Shown here: in pieces, positions 15,738-55,940 of the stretch
Layout of the letters: each line of letters opens with the position of its first letter
Position numbering within the stretch: the stretch's first letter is position 1
Assembly: GCA_034620365.1 (NCBI GenBank)
Contig: JAQGEQ010000299.1
Location: 620,001 to 684,000, forward strand
Direction of reading: 5' to 3'
From: Pegea sp. RAD2-039
Taxonomy: Eukaryota > Chordata > Thaliacea > Salpida > Salpidae
Length of the DNA: 64,000 bases
Made by a program: the position numbers and the translations under genes
Notes under the pieces: generated by a model
Told to the model about the DNA's origin: nothing
Databases searched by the model: none
Seen by the model: the letters and a program-made list of their open reading frames with translations, nothing else

Positions 15738-16979
15738 CTAAAGAGGTTTTTTAATCCAATCATGGTTCTTCAACTGTTCAATTGAATATCGTAAATTTGG
15801 ATTAAAAGCTAAACACTTGTTGATAAAAGAGTTTACATTATTGGAAAGATTTCTTTTGAGATCCAAACATACATTTCTTTTTGACTCACCCTCTGCTGTT
15901 GTTCTAAAATTTTCTAAAGTATGAAAAGGGTGAACAAGTGTAAGAGTGAAGTACAAACATATTCCTACACTCCATGAATCAATTTTTTTTAATACTGTCT
16001 CTGGCAGCTTATTCAGATCTGCTTTCCTGGCTTCTGGAGACAAATGAACATGATTTCCAAATACAGGAAGAATTTCTGAATTACCATTGATAGAAAAACT
16101 ACTTTCAAAATTTGAAATCTTTACACAAGACCATTTTTTACTTGACATGAACAGAATGTTCTTAGGTTTGATACCTCTATGAACTATGTCGCGAGAACAA
16201 AGATACTCCAGCGCATTCAAAACTTGCTTAAAAATGAATCTAGCATAATTTTCACTAAGTCCCGATTCACTTTTCATTACTCTAGTGCATAAATCCCCAC
16301 CAAGAGCTAGTTCAAATAGCAACCAAGTTGGTTTTGTTTCTGTAGTGAAATCTAAAAGTGTGATTATATTTGGATGACGTATATTTAACATTAACTGTAT
16401 TTCATTCTTTAAAACTTGGTCAACTGCTTTTCGGGTTTTATCAGTAATATATTCCGCTTGTATTTTTAGAACACTATACTTCTTTTGTCTAATTGAAAAC
16501 ACTTTATATACACTTCGAAGACTATTTTTACCAAGACTTCGAAAGTTTCTCCACTCATTATCATTTTTAATAGATAGATTAGTTTTATGAAAAATCACTA
16601 ACTTCAGGTTGTAATTACCAGCCACTATTTCTTTTATTTCCCGATCGTAAAAGATCGTGGTGCCTTTTCTCGGCTGTAGAAGTCGGTTATCTATTCTAAC
16701 ATCTAACGTTGGTTTTGCTTCAATAAAAAACTTTTTTTCAAATGTATCAAGTTTTGTTATCGTAAACAACTTTACACCAAATGGTTGCTTTAGTTTACTC
16801 AATAAACTATTTCCTCTTTCATAAACTACTGCTTTGGTTGGTGTTAAAGGTGTAATCCAGACTCTAGAAGTGGAATTTCGTAAAAAGGCCACTGAAGTGT
16901 TAGGTTCATCTGTATACACCATTCCCCAATTATCAGGAGAAGTCTTCCTTCTACTAGGTGAGCAACTGACTCCCAACAT
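15738..16979 (-). CDS. CHK2-like FHA/kinase-fold protein 1, predicted pseudokinase
   Basis: An uninterrupted 413-codon frame. Layout resembles checkpoint kinase 2: residues about 18-130 begin with WGMVYT, aligning with the first strand of the CHK2 FHA domain, and a kinase fold spans about 145-410. Recognisable landmarks are K172 (the VAIK lysine), E193 (helix C), ARFIFKQVLNALEYL (helix E) and DSWSVGICLY (helix F). The catalytic parts are broken: HRD is HRG (267-269), DFG is replaced by NFE (290-292), APE is SPE, and the glycine loop keeps only its first Gly. Phosphotransfer is therefore unlikely; a binding or scaffold role is the natural inference. The FHA phosphothreonine-binding signature (GR, SxxH, NG) is not evident. 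It has no intron, unlike most neighbours, and belongs to a tandem trio on one strand. The intact frame argues against a dead pseudogene. Confidence 0.85.
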   Translation of the reverse strand: MLGVSCSPSRRKTSPDNWGMVYTDEPNTSVAFLRNSTSRVWITPLTPTKAVVYERGNSLLSKLKQPFGVKLFTITKLDTFEKKFFIEAKPTLDVRIDNRLLQPRKGTTIFYDREIKEIVAGNYNLKLVIFHKTNLSIKNDNEWRNFRSLGKNSLRSVYKVFSIRQKKYSVLKIQAEYITDKTRKAVDQVLKNEIQLMLNIRHPNIITLLDFTTETKPTWLLFELALGGDLCTRVMKSESGLSENYARFIFKQVLNALEYLCSRDIVHRGIKPKNILFMSSKKWSCVKISNFESSFSINGNSEILPVFGNHVHLSPEARKADLNKLPETVLKKIDSWSVGICLYFTLTLVHPFHTLENFRTTAEGESKRNVCLDLKRNLSNNVNSFINKCLAFNPNLRYSIEQLKNHDWIKKPL

Positions 16980-18428
16980 AATACAATTCGAGATTTCAAA
17001 TTGATGTGTTGATGATAAAACTTTATTTTTATTGTACTAGGTTTGTATTGAGCTACTGCAACAATTCAATTATTATGGATAAAATAATCTTTAATCACAT
17101 GAATCAGTTATATGAAAAAAAGAAGGAAGAAAAACAGCTGTTTATAGTAAACCTTAAAGTTACAGCAACACTAAAGTGTAAACTTTATGTTTACAAAACT
17201 AAAGATTATTAGTAATAACCAAATTTACATCACTAATTGTATATTCTTCATGTGTATACTTAAAGCACTGAATTTTAATGACTAGATGCTGACATTTTTT
17301 ATAACATGATAACAAGTAAGAGTTACAAAGAAAACAAAAGTAACTTCAATTTTAAGCACAAAATGAACAAATATAGTTACACCATCTTTCTTTTTAAAAA
17401 AAGTAAAAGAATCTATTGTTTGTTTTAACTCATTAATCTAATAACTAAATTTGTTTGAATTGAAACCGTAAAAGCAATTAAAATTAATGCTGAAACTCAA
17501 TAAAATTTTTTCTATTTTTAATTTATTCCTTTAATTCATAAAATCAAAGCTTTAAGACAATTAATAGTTTAATAAACGACTCAGAATTAAGTTTTCCTCT
17601 TTTATTCTCTTATTTTGATGACTATAATTGAAGTTTTACCTTTAATAAAGCAATAATTATTATTTTCCCTAAAGTATGTCTCTACGATAATAAATGAATC
17701 TGTAAAAAAATATCTTCAATCTGGATCAAAGAAACAAAGTTTTCTAAAAACAATAATCTGGTACGCTCATGATATATAAACTATTTATTTATGTAAATTT
17801 TCATTCATTTCTAACACAAAGCTAACTTTTACTAATACCTAAATAGATTAATGTAAATAAAAAGAAATTAATTCAGAGTATCAAGAAATTACTTTTAGTT
17901 TAGTTGAAACAGTAAAAATACCTTATCAAATATCAACTTTTGAAACTATTTTCTTCAAGAGATGATAATATTAATACATTTTATTATTTAAACTTACATT
18001 AGTTACATTAAATTTTTAAAATAATATACCTTTCGTAAATTTGATACAAAATACATTTGATATTACTCTTAATTTATTTCATTAAATTTTCTATTTATAA
18101 TTTAAAAACAACCAAGATAATAGACTTACCAAAAAATTTATACAACTTTGAGTTTCCTTTGAACGTTTTTGTAAATAGATACATCTTTTTTATATATATC
18201 TCTCATAATTATCTTTTCTAAGAATAATAAAATTAATATCATACAAAAATGAAAATGCAACTGAACAAAATTTTAAGTTTAAACTAGAAGATTTATTTTT
18301 GGTAAAAGAGAAAGTTGATTTAGTTTTGGATGATGCAAGCTTAAATCCCACAAAACAGCAACAAAAATTTAGTAAAGAAACTATTTAAAAGAAATTCTTT
18401 ATAAGGATTCACATTTGAAATCTTCTGA
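16980..18428. other. Intergenic, no gene seen
   Basis: About 1.4 kb of A+T-rich sequence between the first and second kinase-like genes. It should contain the promoter of the first gene and the 3' end of the second. No coding exon or repeat was found. Confidence 0.55.
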
Positions 18429-19637
18429 TTATTGAAAATCGTTTGACTTAAACCAATCATTTTGGAGCAATAGAGTAGCATTAGGACGTTTTCTAACTTT
18501 AGAAGACAAGCACGATTGTATAAAAAATTTGCCTTCAATGGAAAGATTGTTGTACCCATTTACATGAGTATTTTTGATTCCATTTGTGATATTTCTGTAG
18601 TGTTTTCGAAGGTCACAAGTTTCGCTATCAAAAGGTAATTTATTAGAAACAGATAAGAAAACACTTACTCCAAGGCTCCAAATATCAACCTTAAGTGTAT
18701 GGGGGAGTAATCTATCATAAAAACAGTTTGATATTAGTTCAGGAGCCATATAATCATGACTACCGGCCATTCCATAAGTTGATATAACATCTTCACCGAT
18801 ACATGAGTGACTAAAGTTTGTCAACTTTGCAACACATTTTGTACTTTTTGACATTAAAATGATGTTTGATGGATTTAAATCGCGGTGAGCGATGTTTTTT
18901 GAGTGTAAATAATCCACAGCTGATATTATTTGCTTAAAGATAAACTTTGAAGTTGTTTCAGTGATTCCATCTCTTTGTTTTATTCTTTGAAGTAAATTTC
19001 CACCAAAACCATATTCCATAACAATATACCCAATATTACAATTTTGTAATAATGATATTCGTTTGATTATATTTTCATGATCTAGCCTCTTAACTATATT
19101 AATTTCACGTTGAATTGAATCGAGTCCATGGAAAATGTCATAACTTTCAAGGTCTTGTCGATTACTTTTCACAGCTAAATACCTCTTATCTCTGAAACGA
19201 AACATCTTGTGAACAACTAGATATTGACCAGCGTGTAGAACTTCAATAGGTTTCATTATTGTGTTTAATCTTCCATCGAAGAAGTCATCAAATCCTGAAA
19301 TAAAAACTTTTAGGTAAACAAAGTGCCCATTTACTTCAATCTCAGCTTTTTGGTGATAAAATAGAAAGCTTTCTTTTAATTCAACTCGTTGGTTATTCAC
19401 GGATATTATCGATTTTGAAATGTTTTTTATCTTAATGTGATCTTTTTTTCGCGTTATCTTGAAAACAAATTGGGAATTGAAGTTCTTAGTGTGCACAATT
19501 GAAAATATACAATCCTCCTTGTTTCGTGGAATCTGTTTCAATACAAAGACTTTTAAAGTATTTAGTTTTACAGCAGAATGAGATTTCAAGGTACAGCATA
19601 ATGCTCCCCAAGTAGATTTACCATCAAGAGCCATCAT
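18429..19637 (-). CDS. CHK2-like FHA/kinase-fold protein 2, probable pseudokinase
   Basis: An intronless frame of 402 codons starting ATGATGGCT. Residues about 9-115 form the FHA-like part, opening with TWGALCC at the position of the CHK2 FHA start; residues about 130-400 are the kinase fold. This copy is the best preserved of the three: K157 (LAVK), E179 in helix C, an intact HRD (251-253), N258 of the catalytic loop and an intact APE (298-300) are visible. However the catalytic-loop Lys is Asn (HRDLNPSN) and the Mg-binding DFG is NFS (274-276). Loss of the DFG Asp normally abolishes or greatly weakens activity, though atypical kinases with this change exist. Its gene lies between two more degenerate paralogues in the same orientation, pointing to local duplication of an intronless ancestor. 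Confidence 0.85.
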   Translation of the reverse strand: MMALDGKSTWGALCCTLKSHSAVKLNTLKVFVLKQIPRNKEDCIFSIVHTKNFNSQFVFKITRKKDHIKIKNISKSIISVNNQRVELKESFLFYHQKAEIEVNGHFVYLKVFISGFDDFFDGRLNTIMKPIEVLHAGQYLVVHKMFRFRDKRYLAVKSNRQDLESYDIFHGLDSIQREINIVKRLDHENIIKRISLLQNCNIGYIVMEYGFGGNLLQRIKQRDGITETTSKFIFKQIISAVDYLHSKNIAHRDLNPSNIILMSKSTKCVAKLTNFSHSCIGEDVISTYGMAGSHDYMAPELISNCFYDRLLPHTLKVDIWSLGVSVFLSVSNKLPFDSETCDLRKHYRNITNGIKNTHVNGYNNLSIEGKFFIQSCLSSKVRKRPNATLLLQNDWFKSNDFQ

Positions 19638-19853
19638 TAATATATCTTAGCTGAACTTCTGCAGAAATATTAAAAAAATTCAAATAGCTTATACATAAAT
19701 CTGTTAGTGTTAATCGTCTGTTTATCATTTTCACTTTAGAATATTTTGCATATTTAACTCATAAATAAATTATAAATTAACTATTGGAAATAATAAAAAG
19801 ATTAGTCTGATTCATTTTTTTTTACTGTTATCGAAGATTCAAGTTTTGTAATT

Positions 19854-21080
19854 TCAAAGTTCAGCAGTTAATCTTAAAGATTTTTTTATTTTGAGCCGAT
19901 TTTCAGGATCTAATTGTAAACACTGTTTTATTGTATGTTTGGCTCCACTTGAAATAACCGCCTTTTCATCTAAAATGATCTTCCAATTTTCTTCTTTAAT
20001 TTCTCTCATTAAATTATGACAGTTTTTTATATCTTCAAAAGGAAATTTAGCGAAAAAACAAGCAAAAAAAGCAACTCCAAAGCTCCATATATCAACGTTC
20101 ATATCGTATGGCAATTTCGACCCAGAAATACATGATTCTAGCATTTCAGGTGCCATGTAACAAAACGTTCCAACTGGATTGCACATTTGAACCTTATCAT
20201 AATTGAAGCAACAGCAGCTAAACGATCCAAGTTTAATTGGACCCATAGCGTTGTTAGACATTAAATAGATGTGTTCAAGCTTGATATTTCGATGAACAAT
20301 GTTACGATCATGTAGAAAAACGACAGCTTGTAAAACCTTATCAAATACATGTCTGACAACTACCTCATCCAGCGCTCCTATACGCTCAACGACATTTAAA
20401 AGAGTTCCTCCATGAGCTAATGTAGTTATAACAAATTTTTCGCGTAGAGGTTGTTCAATTGCTAAGATGTTCATTAAATAGGAGTGCTCAATGCCGTTCA
20501 AAAACTTTATTTCATTTTCAAAAACTTCCTTTGGTAAATCTTCAAAGCCTTTTTTGTTCATAAATTTAACAGCACAAAAACGTTTTGAAGGTAGATAAAA
20601 CCCTTTGTACACATTTGCATATCTTCCGGCATTTAACATTTTGATCAGTTTTGTTGTCTGGGTAACCGGCAACTGGAGGTAATTTTCAGGAATATTTAAA
20701 AAAATCATCAAAACTAGCTTCAACTTCCCACAAGTTATTTCAACAGATTTGCGAGACAGTCCGACTTTTTGATTTCTTGCCAACTGACAGTTATCAACCC
20801 AGAGAATTTCATTAACTTTAGATTTAATAAACACTCGATATCCATTGTCACTTTTGTACCTAATGATCAGAAACGTTGTTTCTTCTACAATTTTTTGGGT
20901 TAGAAATTGTAAAAATCCATATTTAGCAGTCTTTATTGTTCTGTCATTTTCATTTAGACAAACTAATGTTTTGTTGTTTTCAAGAAAGGTATTTTTAACT
21001 GAAAAGTTTGTAGAATGTAACATGCCCCATGAGTTTTCTTCATGGGACAGACTTTCATTTAAGTATAATAATTTAAACAT
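19854..21080 (-). CDS. CHK2-like FHA/kinase-fold protein 3, predicted pseudokinase
   Basis: An intronless 408-codon frame. SWGMLHSTN at residues 17-25 aligns with the FHA start of CHK2 and of the two neighbouring paralogues; the kinase fold starts near 145. K172 (CAVK), E190 in helix C and an intact APE (310-312) are present. The catalytic Asp is lost (HRN, 263-265), the loop Asn is His (LEH), and DFG is GSFS with Ser in place of Asp (286). The C-terminal lobe ends early: after DPENRL the usual helix ending in HPWL is replaced by a short SLRLTAEL tail and stop. It is only about 220 bp upstream (in genomic order) of the second paralogue. Probably the 5'-most gene of a tandem trio. It is likely a non-catalytic protein, and retention of a full frame suggests it is expressed. 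Confidence 0.85.
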   Translation of the reverse strand: MFKLLYLNESLSHEENSWGMLHSTNFSVKNTFLENNKTLVCLNENDRTIKTAKYGFLQFLTQKIVEETTFLIIRYKSDNGYRVFIKSKVNEILWVDNCQLARNQKVGLSRKSVEITCGKLKLVLMIFLNIPENYLQLPVTQTTKLIKMLNAGRYANVYKGFYLPSKRFCAVKFMNKKGFEDLPKEVFENEIKFLNGIEHSYLMNILAIEQPLREKFVITTLAHGGTLLNVVERIGALDEVVVRHVFDKVLQAVVFLHDRNIVHRNIKLEHIYLMSNNAMGPIKLGSFSCCCFNYDKVQMCNPVGTFCYMAPEMLESCISGSKLPYDMNVDIWSFGVAFFACFFAKFPFEDIKNCHNLMREIKEENWKIILDEKAVISSGAKHTIKQCLQLDPENRLKIKKSLRLTAEL

Positions 21081-47626: not shown

Positions 47627-49198
47627 TCAAGATATTTGATACTGTTGCTTCACTCCATCAACTGTCAAGTCTACAAGAAGAGATCTAGGATCGACTGGAT
47701 GTTTATGACACTCAATCAACCCACACACTTGTTGATCTTTTTTTACATCAATTGGTTGAGGCAGAAAGAAGAGAGTTTGTTTCCAGTGTGTTTCCTTACA
47801 GCTTCCAGTTTCAACTGGTTTAGTTGACAAAACAATTGTCTCTTCTGGTAGACTGAAATCCACATCAAAGTAACCAACAATCGTATCCAATTTACTATCC
47901 CGTGAAATAAGCAACTTAAATTCACTTTTGAAATCTAGCTGATGTTGTTTAGTTGATTTAACAATATCTAAAGCAAACACACTAACAGATGCTGATATGA
48001 TTTCGTTAGATGGAATAGTAGTAACAGTGGCTTCATTCAACACTGCTGTCTTCATACATGGCATCTGAAACCCATAAACATCATCCCAATAAGAAACAGA
48101 TCGCTTATAAGCAGTAGCTTCAGCTGCAGCTAGTAATATTTGACATTTATTGGGTAAAATAATTCCATCAGGAGCTAACCATTTTGAAGCAGCATCCAAT
48201 ACAGAGTCTAACATCGATTCATAAAGAAGAAAGTATCCCATCCACTCCGATATGATGATGTCCACGTGCGGGACTGGCAACTTAATTTCTTCTACATTAG
48301 TGCGAAGGACTTGGATTTTATCAGCAAGTCCGTTTTTGAGTATATTATCAATAGCAGATGCAGCTATGTCTGATCTTTCAACAGCAAATACCTGCTTAGC
48401 TCCAGCTTGAGCTGCAAACATGGATAAGATGCCAGTCCCACAACCAACATCAAGGACTATTTTGTCCTTAAACACACTAGGGTTCTTCAGCATAGCATCT
48501 CGATAGGCTAGAGTTCTTGTTTGATCTTGCAGCATCTCTCGATGAATATCAAAATGATCATAAGATCTGAAGTACCCCGAATCTTCAAACTCTTCATCAT
48601 CTTCTTCTTCTTTATCAAATGGTTTTCTACAAGCAGATACAGGTCGGTAGATACTACCTCCTTGAATGATAATGTCTTGCATCACTTTCTTCATTTTTAA
48701 GATCTGATCTTGCGTTCTTTCGTGATCTTCTTTCAAACGTTTATTTTCTACTACTAGTTGAGAGATCTGGGTATCAGTAAGAGATGAAGAGGTATGTTCC
48801 CCTGACCCAGCGTCCATCAAGGATGCAGAGTTAGTTAAAAATGGCTCATCATCAATCTCATCATCAATGATGAACTGAAGAAGAGGATCATTCTCAAGAG
48901 TCGGTTTCAAGTAAGATTCATTCTGCCAGATTTCTCTTTGATCTTGAAGATCTTTAGTTGTTGGGACTTCTTTTCCATTGTAGTTTGCCCTTAAAAAGTT
49001 GATCAGTTTAACATATCCAAAAAAGTCTAGTTTTAGTTCTACATGAACCAAATTCCAAATATCAAAATTACAATTTGTCTTCAGATGAATGAAATAAGCT
49101 TCAGCTGAAGGAAAAGGTTTTTTTGTAAACAAGCAGCTGATCAAATTAACTTCCATCAATTCTTCAAATGAGTCATCAGAATCACTAGAATCACACAT
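47627..49198 (-). CDS. prmt3: Protein arginine N-methyltransferase 3 (PRMT3), intronless
   Basis: An unbroken 523-codon frame, close in length to animal PRMT3. It opens with an acidic head (CDSSDSDDSFEE), then a zinc-finger-like region at 22-46, a linker with a coiled segment (145-175), and the class I methyltransferase core from about 205. The SAM-binding motif VLDVGCGTGILSMFA (248-262), the double-E loop SEWMGYFLLYESM with E318 and E327, and THWKQ near the C-terminus are all intact, so it should make asymmetric dimethylarginine from SAM. The known main substrate of PRMT3 is ribosomal protein RPS2, in the cytosol. In the C2H2 finger (CLFC...H...H in other animals) the second Cys is Thr25 and the second His is Cys43, so zinc binding through that site is doubtful. 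The absence of introns contrasts with most neighbours and may indicate retroposition. Confidence 0.95.
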   Translation of the reverse strand: MCDSSDSDDSFEELMEVNLISCLFTKKPFPSAEAYFIHLKTNCNFDIWNLVHVELKLDFFGYVKLINFLRANYNGKEVPTTKDLQDQREIWQNESYLKPTLENDPLLQFIIDDEIDDEPFLTNSASLMDAGSGEHTSSSLTDTQISQLVVENKRLKEDHERTQDQILKMKKVMQDIIIQGGSIYRPVSACRKPFDKEEEDDEEFEDSGYFRSYDHFDIHREMLQDQTRTLAYRDAMLKNPSVFKDKIVLDVGCGTGILSMFAAQAGAKQVFAVERSDIAASAIDNILKNGLADKIQVLRTNVEEIKLPVPHVDIIISEWMGYFLLYESMLDSVLDAASKWLAPDGIILPNKCQILLAAAEATAYKRSVSYWDDVYGFQMPCMKTAVLNEATVTTIPSNEIISASVSVFALDIVKSTKQHQLDFKSEFKLLISRDSKLDTIVGYFDVDFSLPEETIVLSTKPVETGSCKETHWKQTLFFLPQPIDVKKDQQVCGLIECHKHPVDPRSLLVDLTVDGVKQQYQIS

Positions 49199-52100
49199 TT
49201 TCTTTGAAAATGATTAACTTTTGAAAAATTTTATAATTTTCTAATTCTGAAAAATATATCAGTTTATCTATTAGTATTATTTCCTAAATAATTATTCTTA
49301 AATTGAAAATTATGCAAACTAATCAGAGAAATGACTCATAAGATCTTCTATCAATAAAATCAAAGTAAATAAATACACCAGGAATTGTAAAATATAAAAA
49401 TTCAGACTTTGAGATATCATCTAAATATTTCAAATTGATTTTTGCCTCATAAGTGAGTTTAAATAACTAAAAACTATAAATTTTATCAATTACTAATAGA
49501 AATTACTAAAAACAGATTATTATTAATCTTAATAAAACCAAATTTAACAATCACAGATTTATATAAGTTATCAAAATAAATAAAAGTTATGCTTTTTAAA
49601 AAGTCATAAAATAGTCTCATAAAAAATTGAACTTGAGATCTCTTTGATTATGCTTATTCAAAATAATTTATACTAATGCAATATTTAAATTTATTTCCAA
49701 TAAAATTTCAAAAATATATAAAGAATGATAAATTATTAGCCAAATCTAAACAAATTAGCTAAAAAAACAAAAACAAAACAAGTCATATAAGTGGCAAAAA
49801 CTAGTTAATCTAAAATATTTTTAAATATATATTAAATTACTTTTATTCAAATTAAACTATAAAAAATTTTAATATACTCAGAGTATAGTTATGAAAAGAA
49901 TGTTATTTGTAGAGATTAAATAAATTTGTAGAGATTTATGTAAAATAAAAATATAACAGATCATTTTTAAATAACTAAAAAGAATAAATAGAAGTAATTG
50001 TTGGAAAATAATTTCAAAAATAGGCTAGTAAGGGGTAAAGTTGAAAATTTCAAGAATATGTTTATTCTAATGATCTTCTAAAGAAGTCAAAGAGCTTCTA
50101 GTAATAATTTAGCAACTTAATTAAATTGAATATGAACATCGTAATGAACGTGTTTAAAACATATCTTAATTGGACGAATCAAGAAATGATTTAAGAATTT
50201 AAACACATTTATTAAATTATTATTTCTAAGTAGTTATTTTACACAAAATCGAAAAAAGTCTAAAAGCAATTAATTTTTAAAAATATAAGTAATAGAAAAA
50301 GAAATTATCAAAATAAGATTATTTTAATCCTTTATATTAAGTAAGAATATTTTTTATAAAAACTGTTTCTATTTAAAATAAAATTTAAATACAAAAGTAT
50401 ATCAAACTAGAATTTGTTAGAAACAAAACTGTTTTTATTGCTAAAATTTTGTAATTTATTAATAACTTGTCAATTCTATGTCACCCAAAATTTTAAATAA
50501 CATAAACAAATTAATAGTTGTGTGATTAACGTTTAATGATTTTACAAACAATTTCTTCAAATCAGTAATAATACAAAAAGTAGTTAATAATATTCAAAAT
50601 AATCGTTGTGTAAATAGAGTAAGATTGTATTTTTTTCCTGTTGCTTTATTTTTTTAGTGTATAGAATTAAAAAGATTCAAACTACGTTACTTAAATTCCA
50701 TACTGAATTAATTACAAGAAAATTGTTTTAAGTATCTTTTGCTTCTAAAAGTAAAGCCAAAGTATCTATCTAATCAATAAAAGATGAATCACAAAAATGA
50801 TTATTTATTGCTTTTTAGCAAGCTTTTGAGCAACAGCTTCCTGTAAGTAATCATCTGATGCTTCTTATTGTTTTAAACTTGTTTTGCATTCGAATATCAA
50901 CTTAAAATTCAATTAATGTATCTGTTATTTACTATTATTCCACTCAAAACATAAAATTTCTTTCTTTGAGTATAAGTTCAATCTTTGTAGTCGAGTAAAA
51001 GTTTGTTGGAGTAAGTTTTAAAAAGATGTAGTATGGAGTCCTTTTCGCCCGAGAACGGACATGCTGTAAAATAGGGCAGAAATTACGGAGATCCAATTGT
51101 TGCTCATGCAGCAAAATGTTATTTTCCGTGCCAATAGGTATGTGACAGAACATACGGACTTATGCAGCTACGCCTAGCTGGCGTCGAAGGAGCTGTCGAA
51201 CAACACTAAGTTATAGTAACAAAATGCTTACGATGTTCAAACTCCTGCTTTAAATTTGGAAATTTGCGTCTCCTAAAAGTGTTGTTCTACCCAGTTTTCT
51301 TATGAGCTTTTCCTTGTTGTAAAACACTTCAGAGACGGAACAAAGATGTAGGTCAATAAAAGGTTTAAAAAATGAAATGTATTTTTCATTTTTCAAAATT
51401 TTCATATAACGATTTTTCTTTTACTGAAATACACAGAAATATCTAGCAAGAATATAGTGATTTAAAACGGTAAAATCAAACTTATAGCTTATGTAAAAAA
51501 GTAATTATCGGTTATTAAACTTTCAATCTAAAATTTATCGGATTAGTTTATAAATACTAGTAATAGTTTAACGTTTCCTAAATTCATTATACAGTAAAGA
51601 TACAGATAAATGCCAATATTCTTCAACAAATTTAATTTCTAAAGTACCTCTACCAGCATTTATCATGTTATCATTTCTACCTACAATTATTTCATTTTTA
51701 AACTGCGGTTGTTCTCTTAAAGTTACGAGTTTCACTTTTTAATTAAAAATTAAAAAATTATAAATCTTTGCAGCTTTAGTTTTATTTTACTTTAATCTAC
51801 CAAAAAATATTTACATATTTTTTGATGGCAGCTATTGGTTTATTATTTTACATTTTTAGATTTCAAAAAGTTAATAGGGCTTTTGTAAATTTTTGCATAA
51901 AAGCCATTTTCAGAAGATTGTTTAATAAGCAGCATTAGTTAGTATCTCTTTGTAAAGGTTTTCAACTTGAATGGTTGTAAAATTTTAGCGTGATAAAATT
52001 ATGACTTTCACTAATTACTATTTTCATATAGCTCAGATATTTTCTTAAATATTATTTCTTTTCAGCTTCTACCTACTTTTATTGATTTAATTTATAAATT

Positions 52101-53609: not shown

Positions 53610-55940
53610 GATTACAGTAAACGTGAAAGAGGTTTCTTGAAGAGAACATCTCTCGCTAACAAACATTCTCACAACTAATATATAATTATAGATTTTAAGT
53701 TGAAAATATAAAAAGATGTATCACATGCTATTTCAGTAGTCCCCAAACAATATGACAGTGAACAGATTTATAATAATATATAAAAAAAGGAAAAAATCAC
53801 AGTTTAGAAATGGCTATGTCGGTAATATTATAACGGTTCAACTTCTGCTTGAACAACACGAGCTTACTTCGACATGGCAATGTCTGATGGTAGCTGGTTC
53901 CATGTAATAATTGTGCGATATGAGAAAAAATTTGCTCTGACCAATGTACTAGGCGATATAGGCTTATTAAGGTGTAATGTGTGTCGTCTAAGTTGGTATA
54001 ACTTGAGGGAAGGACTAATAGAAAAGAAATAATCAAATTTAAGGTCAATTTGTGGATTATTTTTTTAAATAAGAATTTATAATAAGGTAGACAAGGTTGA
54101 TTGATTTTCCAAAGATTTTGGAAACATAATCGCGCCATTTAAAGTCAGATGATAGAGTAATGCCAAGGTCTAGGATTGAAGATACTTGTTGAATAATAAA
54201 TCTATTGATGGAGTATTGGTTCAAGCAATTTACAGCTGGTTTACGAGAAAAAGTTAACAGTTCAGACTTTGTGGGCTGGATTCTGAGCTGCCATTTCATA
54301 GATCAATTTTCTACAGTGTGTAGTGCAGTTTGAAGAATTGCAAGATAATAGCTTTATGTCATATGCATACACAAACACGCTGGAATCATCTACTGTTTCT
54401 GATAGTAGCTTAACAATTTTGAATATTCGGAAATCAAACTAAAAATAGAAATGATGACTACCAACAGTTATTTTGCCTAGTTTATTCATTTTAACCTAGT
54501 CTTCTAATAATGTCTTCAATGAAAATTAAAAAGAGAAGGGGTCCCAGAACGGAACCCTGAGGAACTTTACTGGTGATTTGACTAGGATTATACAAAGATC
54601 TTTCAACACGAGTTTGTTGGATTCTACCCAATAAACAATCTTCAATCCACTTTAAGATAAAGCTGCTGATTTTTAATTTTTTGTAAAACAATAATGATCT
54701 TGTTGTGTTGGACAGAATCGAACGCCTTAGCAAAGTTGAGATATAAGATGTCACAAGGAGTATTAGTTTCATAATTGGCTGTAAGCTCATTACAAAAAGT
54801 GAGATGTTGAGTCAGGGAAGATCTCCGTTTCACAAAGCCATGCTAGATATCAGATGTTAGATAGTGTTCCATGAAATGACTGGTCATATGATTGTAAATG
54901 AGTTCTGGAGATAACTGAAGTCAACGAAACTGGTCTGTAGTAAAGTGCGATGTTTCAGAAATCTACTCAACACCCGATAGAAACACATTAATACCATCAT
55001 AATTTCCACAATAAAAATTCCGTTTGCTTCGAGTTTTAACGTTAATGGAAAAAATCTTGAATTCAATCATGTTGTGATCGCATGTTAGAGCAAATTTTAT
55101 TTTTGATCAACGCAGATAAGGTTCTCAGGGTTTGATGTGATAAGAAGATCCAAAGTATTACCACTAACTTAAGTTTGAAAGGTAATCACTTGAGATAGGT
55201 TATTGGCATCAAGGAAGCTTACTAAAGCATGACTTAAAATGGCTGAGTTGGGATTTTCGCTTTCCAAGTTAAACGATTTTCCCATAAATATTAAATTCGG
55301 GTTATTTCATCAATCAATTTTACTAAAATTTAAATCCCCAAAAATATATAACTCAGGACACATGACACTCTTCAGAGCCTTCAATAAGGCCTTAACAGCA
55401 ACCCCGTCATTAATCTTAGAGGGTGGTAGGTATATATAAAACGAGAAAATTTAAACTTAGAGTAATGAAAATCAAAAGCGATAATCGCAAATCCTGGAAA
55501 AATAATAGGATCGATCTAAATTCTAGAGATCATGGGTGCAATCGATGTTTTTTGAACTGCGCAAACACCGCCGCCTCTATCATACAGTCTATCACAACGC
55601 AAAACACAAAAAAGATTACCGTCAAACAGAAAAGAATCAGGATAAAACGGTTTCAACCAAGTTTCAGTAATAACAAGAAATGTGAAATCTTGAGAATGCA
55701 AAAGATCTTTCAATTGGAAAATTGTGTCAATAATCGACCGTGCGTTGAAGAACATGCATGAAGAAAGAATGTGAGAGAAGAATTGTATTTTTGACGCTTG
55801 TGAGATTTGATGATAGGCTTCTGTGAACTGATATCTTGGGCTGGAAGAATGGTATTCACATTTGTGTGCAAGAAGCATGTGAAAAAAGAAGATGAGGGAC
55901 CAGTGGTTATTTTCCACTTCCGTTTTTTGAAAAAATAAAC
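53610..55940 (-). mobile_element. Decayed LINE-type (CR1/Jockey-like) retrotransposon
   Basis: Minus-strand fragments in the right order for a non-LTR element. At 55917-55516 the start of an endonuclease: FFNARSI...LKDLL....FTFLVITETWL, the usual N-terminal motif of APE-type endonucleases. After frame breaks, at 54833-54491 a reverse transcriptase core: ILYLNFAKAFDSVQHNKI (motif A, where the usual catalytic Asp is Asn) and VPQGSVLGPLLFLIFIEDI. At 54299-54057 the C-terminal thumb-like part with ILDLGITLSSDFKW. The frames are shifted against each other and interrupted by stops, so the copy is dead. The 3' untranslated tail (53610-53850) is shared with two truncated copies elsewhere in the window (32355-32600 and 5535-5665). 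Confidence 0.85.

Follow-up and report, generated by a model that had tools for sequence, protein, structure and literature searches.

The checkpoint kinase CHK2 (RAD53 family, CAMK group) is activated by dimerization, in which its FHA domain binds a phosphothreonine (pThr68), and by the subsequent phosphorylation of its activation loop, as outlined in a published account (PMC12751073). Three neighboring minus-strand open reading frames (ORFs) of Pegea sp. RAD2-039 (Salpidae), here called T1, T2, and T3, resemble CHK2 in the order of an FHA-like region followed by a kinase domain, in the WG/WA start of the FHA region, and in the kinase fold, and have lost catalytic residues. They lie within a stretch of 64,000 nucleotides (“the window,” C249:620001-684000, GenBank contig JAQGEQ010000299.1) of a genome of 105.7 Mb in 387 contigs, and are pseudokinase members of a dispersed family of single-exon ORFs that appears to descend from CHK2.

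Expanded kinase families in which pseudokinases recur have been described before. The coccidian rhoptry kinases (ROPK) are a lineage-specific expansion of mostly single-exon genes, in which pseudokinases arose repeatedly and are intermixed with active kinases on the tree (PMC3682881); the title of a reference cited there has the pseudokinase ROP5 regulating the active ROP18. The family of T1-T3 is likewise expanded, lineage-specific, and single-exon, with recurrent, intermixed pseudokinases. However, ROPKs are secreted, whereas secretion of T1-T3 is unlikely because their N-terminus has no strongly hydrophobic stretch (maximum 11-residue Kyte-Doolittle mean of 1.35 within the first 40 residues, from a hydropathy scan with no dedicated signal-peptide predictor), and T1-T3 differ further in their putative FHA-derived domain and CHK2 origin. 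A change from HRD to HRN or HRG with the remaining fold kept is described for PSKH2, EphA10, and HER3/JAK2-type pseudokinases (PMC7586955). T3 and T1 carry the same changes (HRN and HRG, respectively), but belong to a large family, whereas the former are single vertebrate genes. Pseudokinases of the PSKH2, EphA10, and HER3/JAK2 type are also not known to have an FHA-derived domain. Among the matching open-access titles and abstracts listed, with subscription papers and preprints outside the scope, no description of a CHK2-derived expansion with a decayed FHA was found.

Three Neighboring Pseudokinase Genes

T1, T2, and T3 are each encoded by a single exon that is open from start to stop. A first-pass annotation, made by a model from the letters of the window alone, had described three single-exon frames of 402-413 codons on one strand, and these were confirmed at the following window positions:

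15738..16979, minus strand: T1, single-exon ORF of 413 amino acids with a putative FHA-derived N-terminus and a pseudokinase domain (HRG, NFE)
16554..16937, minus strand: T1, candidate degenerate CHK2-type FHA region; the positions of the FHA Arg, Ser, and Asn are P, G, and L
16104..16181, minus strand: T1, HRGIKPKN catalytic loop (16158-16181) and NFE replacing DFG (16104-16112)
18429..19637, minus strand: T2, single-exon ORF of 402 amino acids with a putative FHA-derived N-terminus and a kinase domain (HRD kept, NFS)
19257..19619, minus strand: T2, candidate degenerate CHK2-type FHA region; the positions of the FHA Arg, Ser, and Asn are I, S, and S
18810..18887, minus strand: T2, HRDLNPSN catalytic loop (18864-18887) and NFS replacing DFG (18810-18818)
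19854..21080, minus strand: T3, single-exon ORF of 408 amino acids with a putative FHA-derived N-terminus and a pseudokinase domain (HRN, SFS)
20655..21038, minus strand: T3, candidate degenerate CHK2-type FHA region; the positions of the FHA Arg, Ser, and Asn are E, E, and E
20217..20294, minus strand: T3, HRNIKLEH catalytic loop (20271-20294) and SFS replacing DFG (20217-20225)

The kinase domain is recognized by Pfam in all three proteins (Pkinase, E = 8e-44 for T1, 1e-48 for T2, and 2.2e-42 for T3). The motif pairs that the first reading had given (HRG/NFE, HRD/NFS, and HRN/SFS), the VAIK-Lys and helix-C Glu present in each protein, and the WG openings (amino acids 18-19 in T1, 10-11 in T2, and 18-19 in T3) were all found again. 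The DFG-Asp is missing from T1, T2, and T3, and the HRD-Asp from T1 and T3, while T2 keeps it; the loop Asn is also gone in T3 (Asn to His). All eight scored framework residues, i.e., the VAIK-Lys and the seven listed below, are present in every one of the three; the glycine loop is not kept. Judged by these residues, T1-T3 are pseudokinases, as defined by the loss of at least one of VAIK-Lys, HRD-Asp, and DFG-Asp with the fold kept.

Some of the three could nevertheless still be enzymes with unusual metal use in the manner of CASK, which is reportedly active in this way. The obvious candidate is T2, which retains the Lys, the Glu, the HRD-Asp, and the loop Asn, and CASK chains are among the PDB matches listed for T3. 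The absence of the HRD-Asp as well from T1 and T3, and of the catalytic-loop Lys as well from T2 (HRDLN, Lys to Asn), makes residual activity of this kind unlikely.

A Dispersed Family of Single-Exon Genes

Genome searches with T1, T2, T3, three further members, and the Pfam FHA model recovered at least 29 single-exon ORFs of the T1-T3 architecture, T1-T3 included, on 14 contigs. This count is a lower bound, as many more kinase matches exist, some with internal stops; four of the 29 ORFs closely duplicate others and are possibly haplotypes. The three genes of the window are therefore adjacent, as the annotation had it with its “tandem trio,” but not isolated. VAIK-Lys, HRD-Asp, and DFG-Asp are all kept in 19/29 ORFs, and one or more of them is lost in 10/29.

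Two of the 29 are canonical (on C1 and C38) and 27 are non-canonical. The annotation had proposed to look for an intact CHK2 and further copies in the genome, and both exist. The intact CHK2 at C1:89992-91584 is a single-exon gene for 531 amino acids, in which three SQ motifs precede the FHA and the kinase domain, and it matches CHK2 of the PDB with E = 3.8e-77 over FHA and kinase. A second intact copy, a 414-amino-acid ORF on C38 (L033:2305-3546), matches CHK2 over the same two domains with E = 8.5e-62. Pfam recognizes an FHA in two ORFs of the family, namely these copies. A member on C35 bridges the distance: it aligns to the C1 CHK2 from its own residue 138 onward, a match that takes in the latter half of the FHA. 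The best non-self genome match of T2 is the C1 CHK2 (E = 1.4e-32), that of T3 being T2. Kinase clusters on C14 and C265 were excluded from the family because the one member examined from each has no WG start; C249:367505 and C249:400707 also lie outside the count.

Several observations on these loci may be added. The clusters at 335-381 kb of C265 and 39-90 kb of C14 form a separate group of single-exon kinase frames, most of them about 430 codons long, and the member examined on each contig has a C-terminal extension. On C38, a 309-codon ORF, which by eye resembles the GIY-YIG nuclease SLX1, overlaps the frame of the second intact CHK2; the stretch occupied by both (L033:1329-3546, about 381.8-384.0 kb) stands out as richer in G+C (41-49% in 500-base steps) than its flanks (14-34%), and the G+C content at third codon positions (GC3) of this CHK2 copy is 0.53, against a range of 0.18-0.42 for the remaining family ORFs that were scored. 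An apparently active member is present in four near-identical copies on C65 (42 and 158 kb), C260 (466 kb), and C106 (376 kb), three of which lie no more than about 20 kb from the end of a contig. Carriage of these copies by a mobile element was considered and rejected: the duplication around them is longer than the gene and in several pairs reaches the limit of the DNA compared, which points to segmental or haplotype duplication and not to gene-sized elements.

Origin of the N-Terminal Region

In CHK2, the Arg, Ser, and Asn of the FHA are the residues that read phosphothreonine. They are unaltered in the two canonical copies, on C1 and C38; Arg and Asn are absent from every non-canonical member (0/27 for either residue). 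From the 27 non-canonical members, 21 N-termini were combined into a profile (near-copies and two C132 members were left out), and when this profile was compared with 177,635 PDB sequences, the three top matches were all CHK2 (1gxc, 3i6u, and 3i6w; E = 0.031, 0.073, and 0.08), colinear over profile positions 3-110 of 124 (3-109 in the best match). A profile-profile comparison of the family N-termini with the two intact FHAs gave E = 4.3e-5 and a probability of 69%, and in a phmmer search the match of T3 to CHK2 3i6u starts at residue 78 of T3, inside its putative FHA region. Descent from CHK2 is suggested by this profile together with the intact copies, the bridging member, and the common layout, in which the FHA-derived domain, identified by the family profile only, stands directly before the kinase domain, identified by Pfam. 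The CHK2-like architecture of the first reading is thus borne out by the intact relatives and, for the degenerate FHA, by the family profile. The more specific proposition that the N-terminus of T1-T3 is a decayed CHK2 FHA is supported as well, but more weakly.

Several results speak against this derivation. At E-values up to 1, FHA is not among the Pfam families matched by T1, T2, or T3, and the family profile meets the CHK2 FHA at E-values above 0.01 only. The best single PDB match of T1 is a calcium-dependent kinase, with CHK2 not among the best 60 of 1989 matches; T2 is closest to CAMK2 (2.2e-31, vs. 1.4e-26 for CHK2) and T3 to ULK3 (3.2e-22, vs. 1.7e-20 for CHK2). Moreover, the assignment of residues within the decayed FHA varies with the alignment used, above all the count for the Ser, on which two alignments disagree and which stands at 4/27 non-canonical members, with T2 as the only possible case within T1-T3. 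The missing Pfam match and the PDB profile E-values of 0.03-0.08 would fit a kinase fused to an unrelated domain that happens to start with WG. That all of the three best among so many PDB sequences are CHK2 in colinear alignment, that the two intact FHAs are matched at the profile-profile level, and that the C35 member matches the C1 CHK2 into its FHA makes such a fusion very improbable.

T1-T3 are not CHK2 orthologues in the ordinary sense. They have no SQ/TQ cluster (no SQ or TQ among the 17, 9, and 17 residues scanned before the WG of T1, T2, and T3, vs. three in the C1 CHK2), they lack the FHA Arg and Asn and the DFG-Asp (T1 and T3 also the HRD-Asp), and, unlike CHK2, they belong to a family of many single-exon ORFs with catalytic loss in about a third of them. 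These differences bear on the proposal of the annotation that the trio might act as decoys in a CHK2 or DNA-damage pathway. Such decoys would compete either for the upstream kinase or for sites of phosphothreonine. The descent from CHK2 and the presence of an intact CHK2 in the genome would suit such a role, but with the Arg and Asn lost in 27/27 non-canonical members and no SQ or TQ before the WG, neither phosphothreonine reading nor SQ-cluster phosphorylation is expected of T1-T3, and a checkpoint decoy is therefore improbable.

Repeated Loss of Catalysis

Catalysis was lost repeatedly within the family. On a maximum-likelihood tree of 26 rows, for which the motif columns were masked, near-copies were dropped, and one kinase without an FHA-like start (L044) served as outgroup, parsimony requires seven changes of catalytic state; over 500 bootstrap trees the number is six in 4, seven in 391, and eight in 105. 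A grouping of the family with the CHK2 copies, apart from other kinases, is tentative, with a single outgroup kinase and moderate inner support; taken singly, T1-T3 match other kinases best in the PDB. T2 and T3 are sisters in 416/500 bootstrap trees. As to the trio itself, the annotation had assumed that the three active sites decayed independently. However, the loss of the DFG-Asp, which is common to all three, may be one shared event, which leaves the HRD changes, seen in T1 and T3, as the only ones within the trio that appear independent. The placement of the trio on the tree is a point against its proposed history: T1-T3 form a clade in 391/500 bootstrap trees (support 78/47 on the tree), T1 stood apart from T2 and T3 in an earlier, unmasked tree, and the branches are long (2.4, 1.94, and 1.81 changes per column for T1, T2, and T3); long branches meet, and the joins are insecure.

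Framework Retention and Selection

Among nine distinct pseudokinases of the family, the residues that hold the kinase framework (helix-C Glu, HRD His, DFG Phe, APE Pro and Glu, helix-F Asp, and the Arg partner of APE) persist in 60/63 cells, compared with 21/36 for the remaining residues of the catalytic loop and DFG (p = 9.4e-6). The residues that define the pseudokinase class are omitted from this comparison; a first version (68/72 vs. 27/54) was set aside as partly circular, since three of the residues it counted also define the class. The pattern is as expected if the shape, and perhaps nucleotide-dependent switching, were selected and phosphotransfer were not.

The open frames themselves are informative. 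When the ORFs of T1-T3 were mutated neutrally in simulations, 0.05 substitutions per site introduced a mean of 3.5-3.6 stops and left 8, 6, and 3 of 200 copies open, and 0.2 substitutions per site introduced a mean of 10.9-11.6 stops and left 0/200 open for each gene. Direct comparison of the three, as the annotation had suggested in the form of dN/dS, yields less: they are too diverged for a useful ratio, with 21-24% mutual identity and synonymous-site differences of 0.60-0.68 per site, i.e., near saturation. Between T2 and T3 there is a clear synonymous excess, the 95% interval for the difference between non-synonymous and synonymous proportions (pN-pS) being -0.246 to -0.060.

Constraint on a pseudokinase is directly visible in a paralogous pair on C43 (HRA/DFA; 272 and 322 kb), whose coding sequences (CDS) differ at 9/1239 positions (0.73%) with 0 indels, compared with 137/4504 (3.04%) and 12 indels in the flanks (p = 3.7e-7); the non-synonymous sites (5/978) are likewise far below the flanks (p = 3e-7). 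The four near-copies of the apparently active member on C65, C260, and C106 differ by 0.7-7.2% in their flanks, depending on the pair, and by 0.8% or less in the CDS, the CDS being less diverged than the flanks in 5/6 pairs (p below 1e-4; p = 0.38 in the sixth). The retention under selection that had been proposed for the trio therefore holds for the C43 pseudokinase pair, and is supported indirectly for T1-T3, by the open frames and the retained framework residues.

Some of these data pull in the other direction. For T1, the intervals of pN-pS (-0.122 to 0.028 with T2, -0.161 to 0.007 with T3) show no difference; within the CDS of the C43 pair, non-synonymous and synonymous changes (5/978 vs. 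4/258) do not differ significantly (p = 0.097); and the pair, possibly haplotypes, is paralogous to T1-T3, so that the direct constraint is seen outside the trio. The absence of a synonymous excess in T1, the high divergence and long branches of the trio, and the lost catalytic residues would all be found in dying duplicates, relaxed and functionless on their way to pseudogenes; and some of the kinase matches with internal stops (e.g., C371, C238, C6:2107219, C83, and C78) may be broken relatives or genes with introns. On the other hand, frames of more than 400 codons are not expected to stay open over 0.2 substitutions per site, all eight framework residues are still in place in each protein, and the C43 pair is constrained, which together make decay without function a rather unlikely fate for T1-T3.

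Proposed Role

The explanation that fits these observations best, and which we hold to be somewhat more probable than all others combined, is that T1-T3 are pseudokinase members of a lineage-specific, dispersed, CHK2-derived family of single-exon genes and are kept for a non-catalytic, likely allosteric role. CHK2 would have given rise to the dispersed paralogs in this lineage; their FHA would have ceased to read phosphothreonine while its fold and its place before the kinase domain were retained; and the catalytic aspartates would then have been lost several times independently. With the FHA-kinase body in place, a copy could still pair with its relatives even after phosphothreonine reading and phosphate transfer are gone, and the body might do so with other family kinases much as CHK2 pairs in dimerization. 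Pseudokinases that originated by duplication often have a modulating, non-catalytic effect on their cognate kinases (PMC8141879), and by analogy with these and with the rhoptry family the dead members, T1-T3 included, are most likely allosteric partners or brakes of catalytically intact paralogs. The retained Lys-Glu pair, the spine residues, and the bridge between APE and its Arg may hold, or switch, an active-like shape. What is inferred here is the order in which the functions were lost, which partner is bound, in which direction regulation runs, and what process it serves.

Surroundings of the Genes

No remnants of further copies were found in the window outside T1-T3 below E = 0.1. An AATAAA lies within 300 nucleotides of the stop in T1 and T2, with none in T3, which is uninformative because of the A+T level. 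Splice-acceptor-like sites upstream of the ATG reach a score of at least 12 in 12/24 near vs. 40/138 far windows (home-made score; rank test p = 0.03); as a hint of transcription this signal was too weak and was dropped.

The genome has TTAGGG telomere repeats, and most of the window has a G+C content of 24-30%; a search for COX1 gave no match. Its other features include a sugar transporter at about 38-40.6 kb, which is spread over several frames, apparently bears introns, and is confirmed by Pfam in one piece; a PRMT3-like protein with a C2H2 zinc finger in one open frame of 528 codons (47627-49213, minus strand); a remnant of a retroelement reverse transcriptase (54491-54811, minus strand; RVT_1, E = 2.3e-5, below the Pfam cut-off); and a run of sushi-repeat-like exons at about 56.8-63.7 kb (minus strand), of which one ORF is confirmed by Pfam and the others were recognized by eye.

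Significance

A broader possibility, which is put forward tentatively, is that CHK2 gave rise, in an animal lineage, to a large and rapidly evolving family that dropped the phospho-reader first and then, repeatedly, catalysis, while a switchable scaffold was kept under selection. Such a family might be an animal counterpart of the rhoptry kinase and pseudokinase families, and germline or immune conflict may have been its driving force. One genome here offers a natural series, from an intact CHK2 through members with a dead FHA and an apparently live kinase to members in which both are dead. With this series one can ask which parts of a kinase signaling requires once catalysis is gone, and into what a checkpoint kinase turns when it no longer has to read damage.

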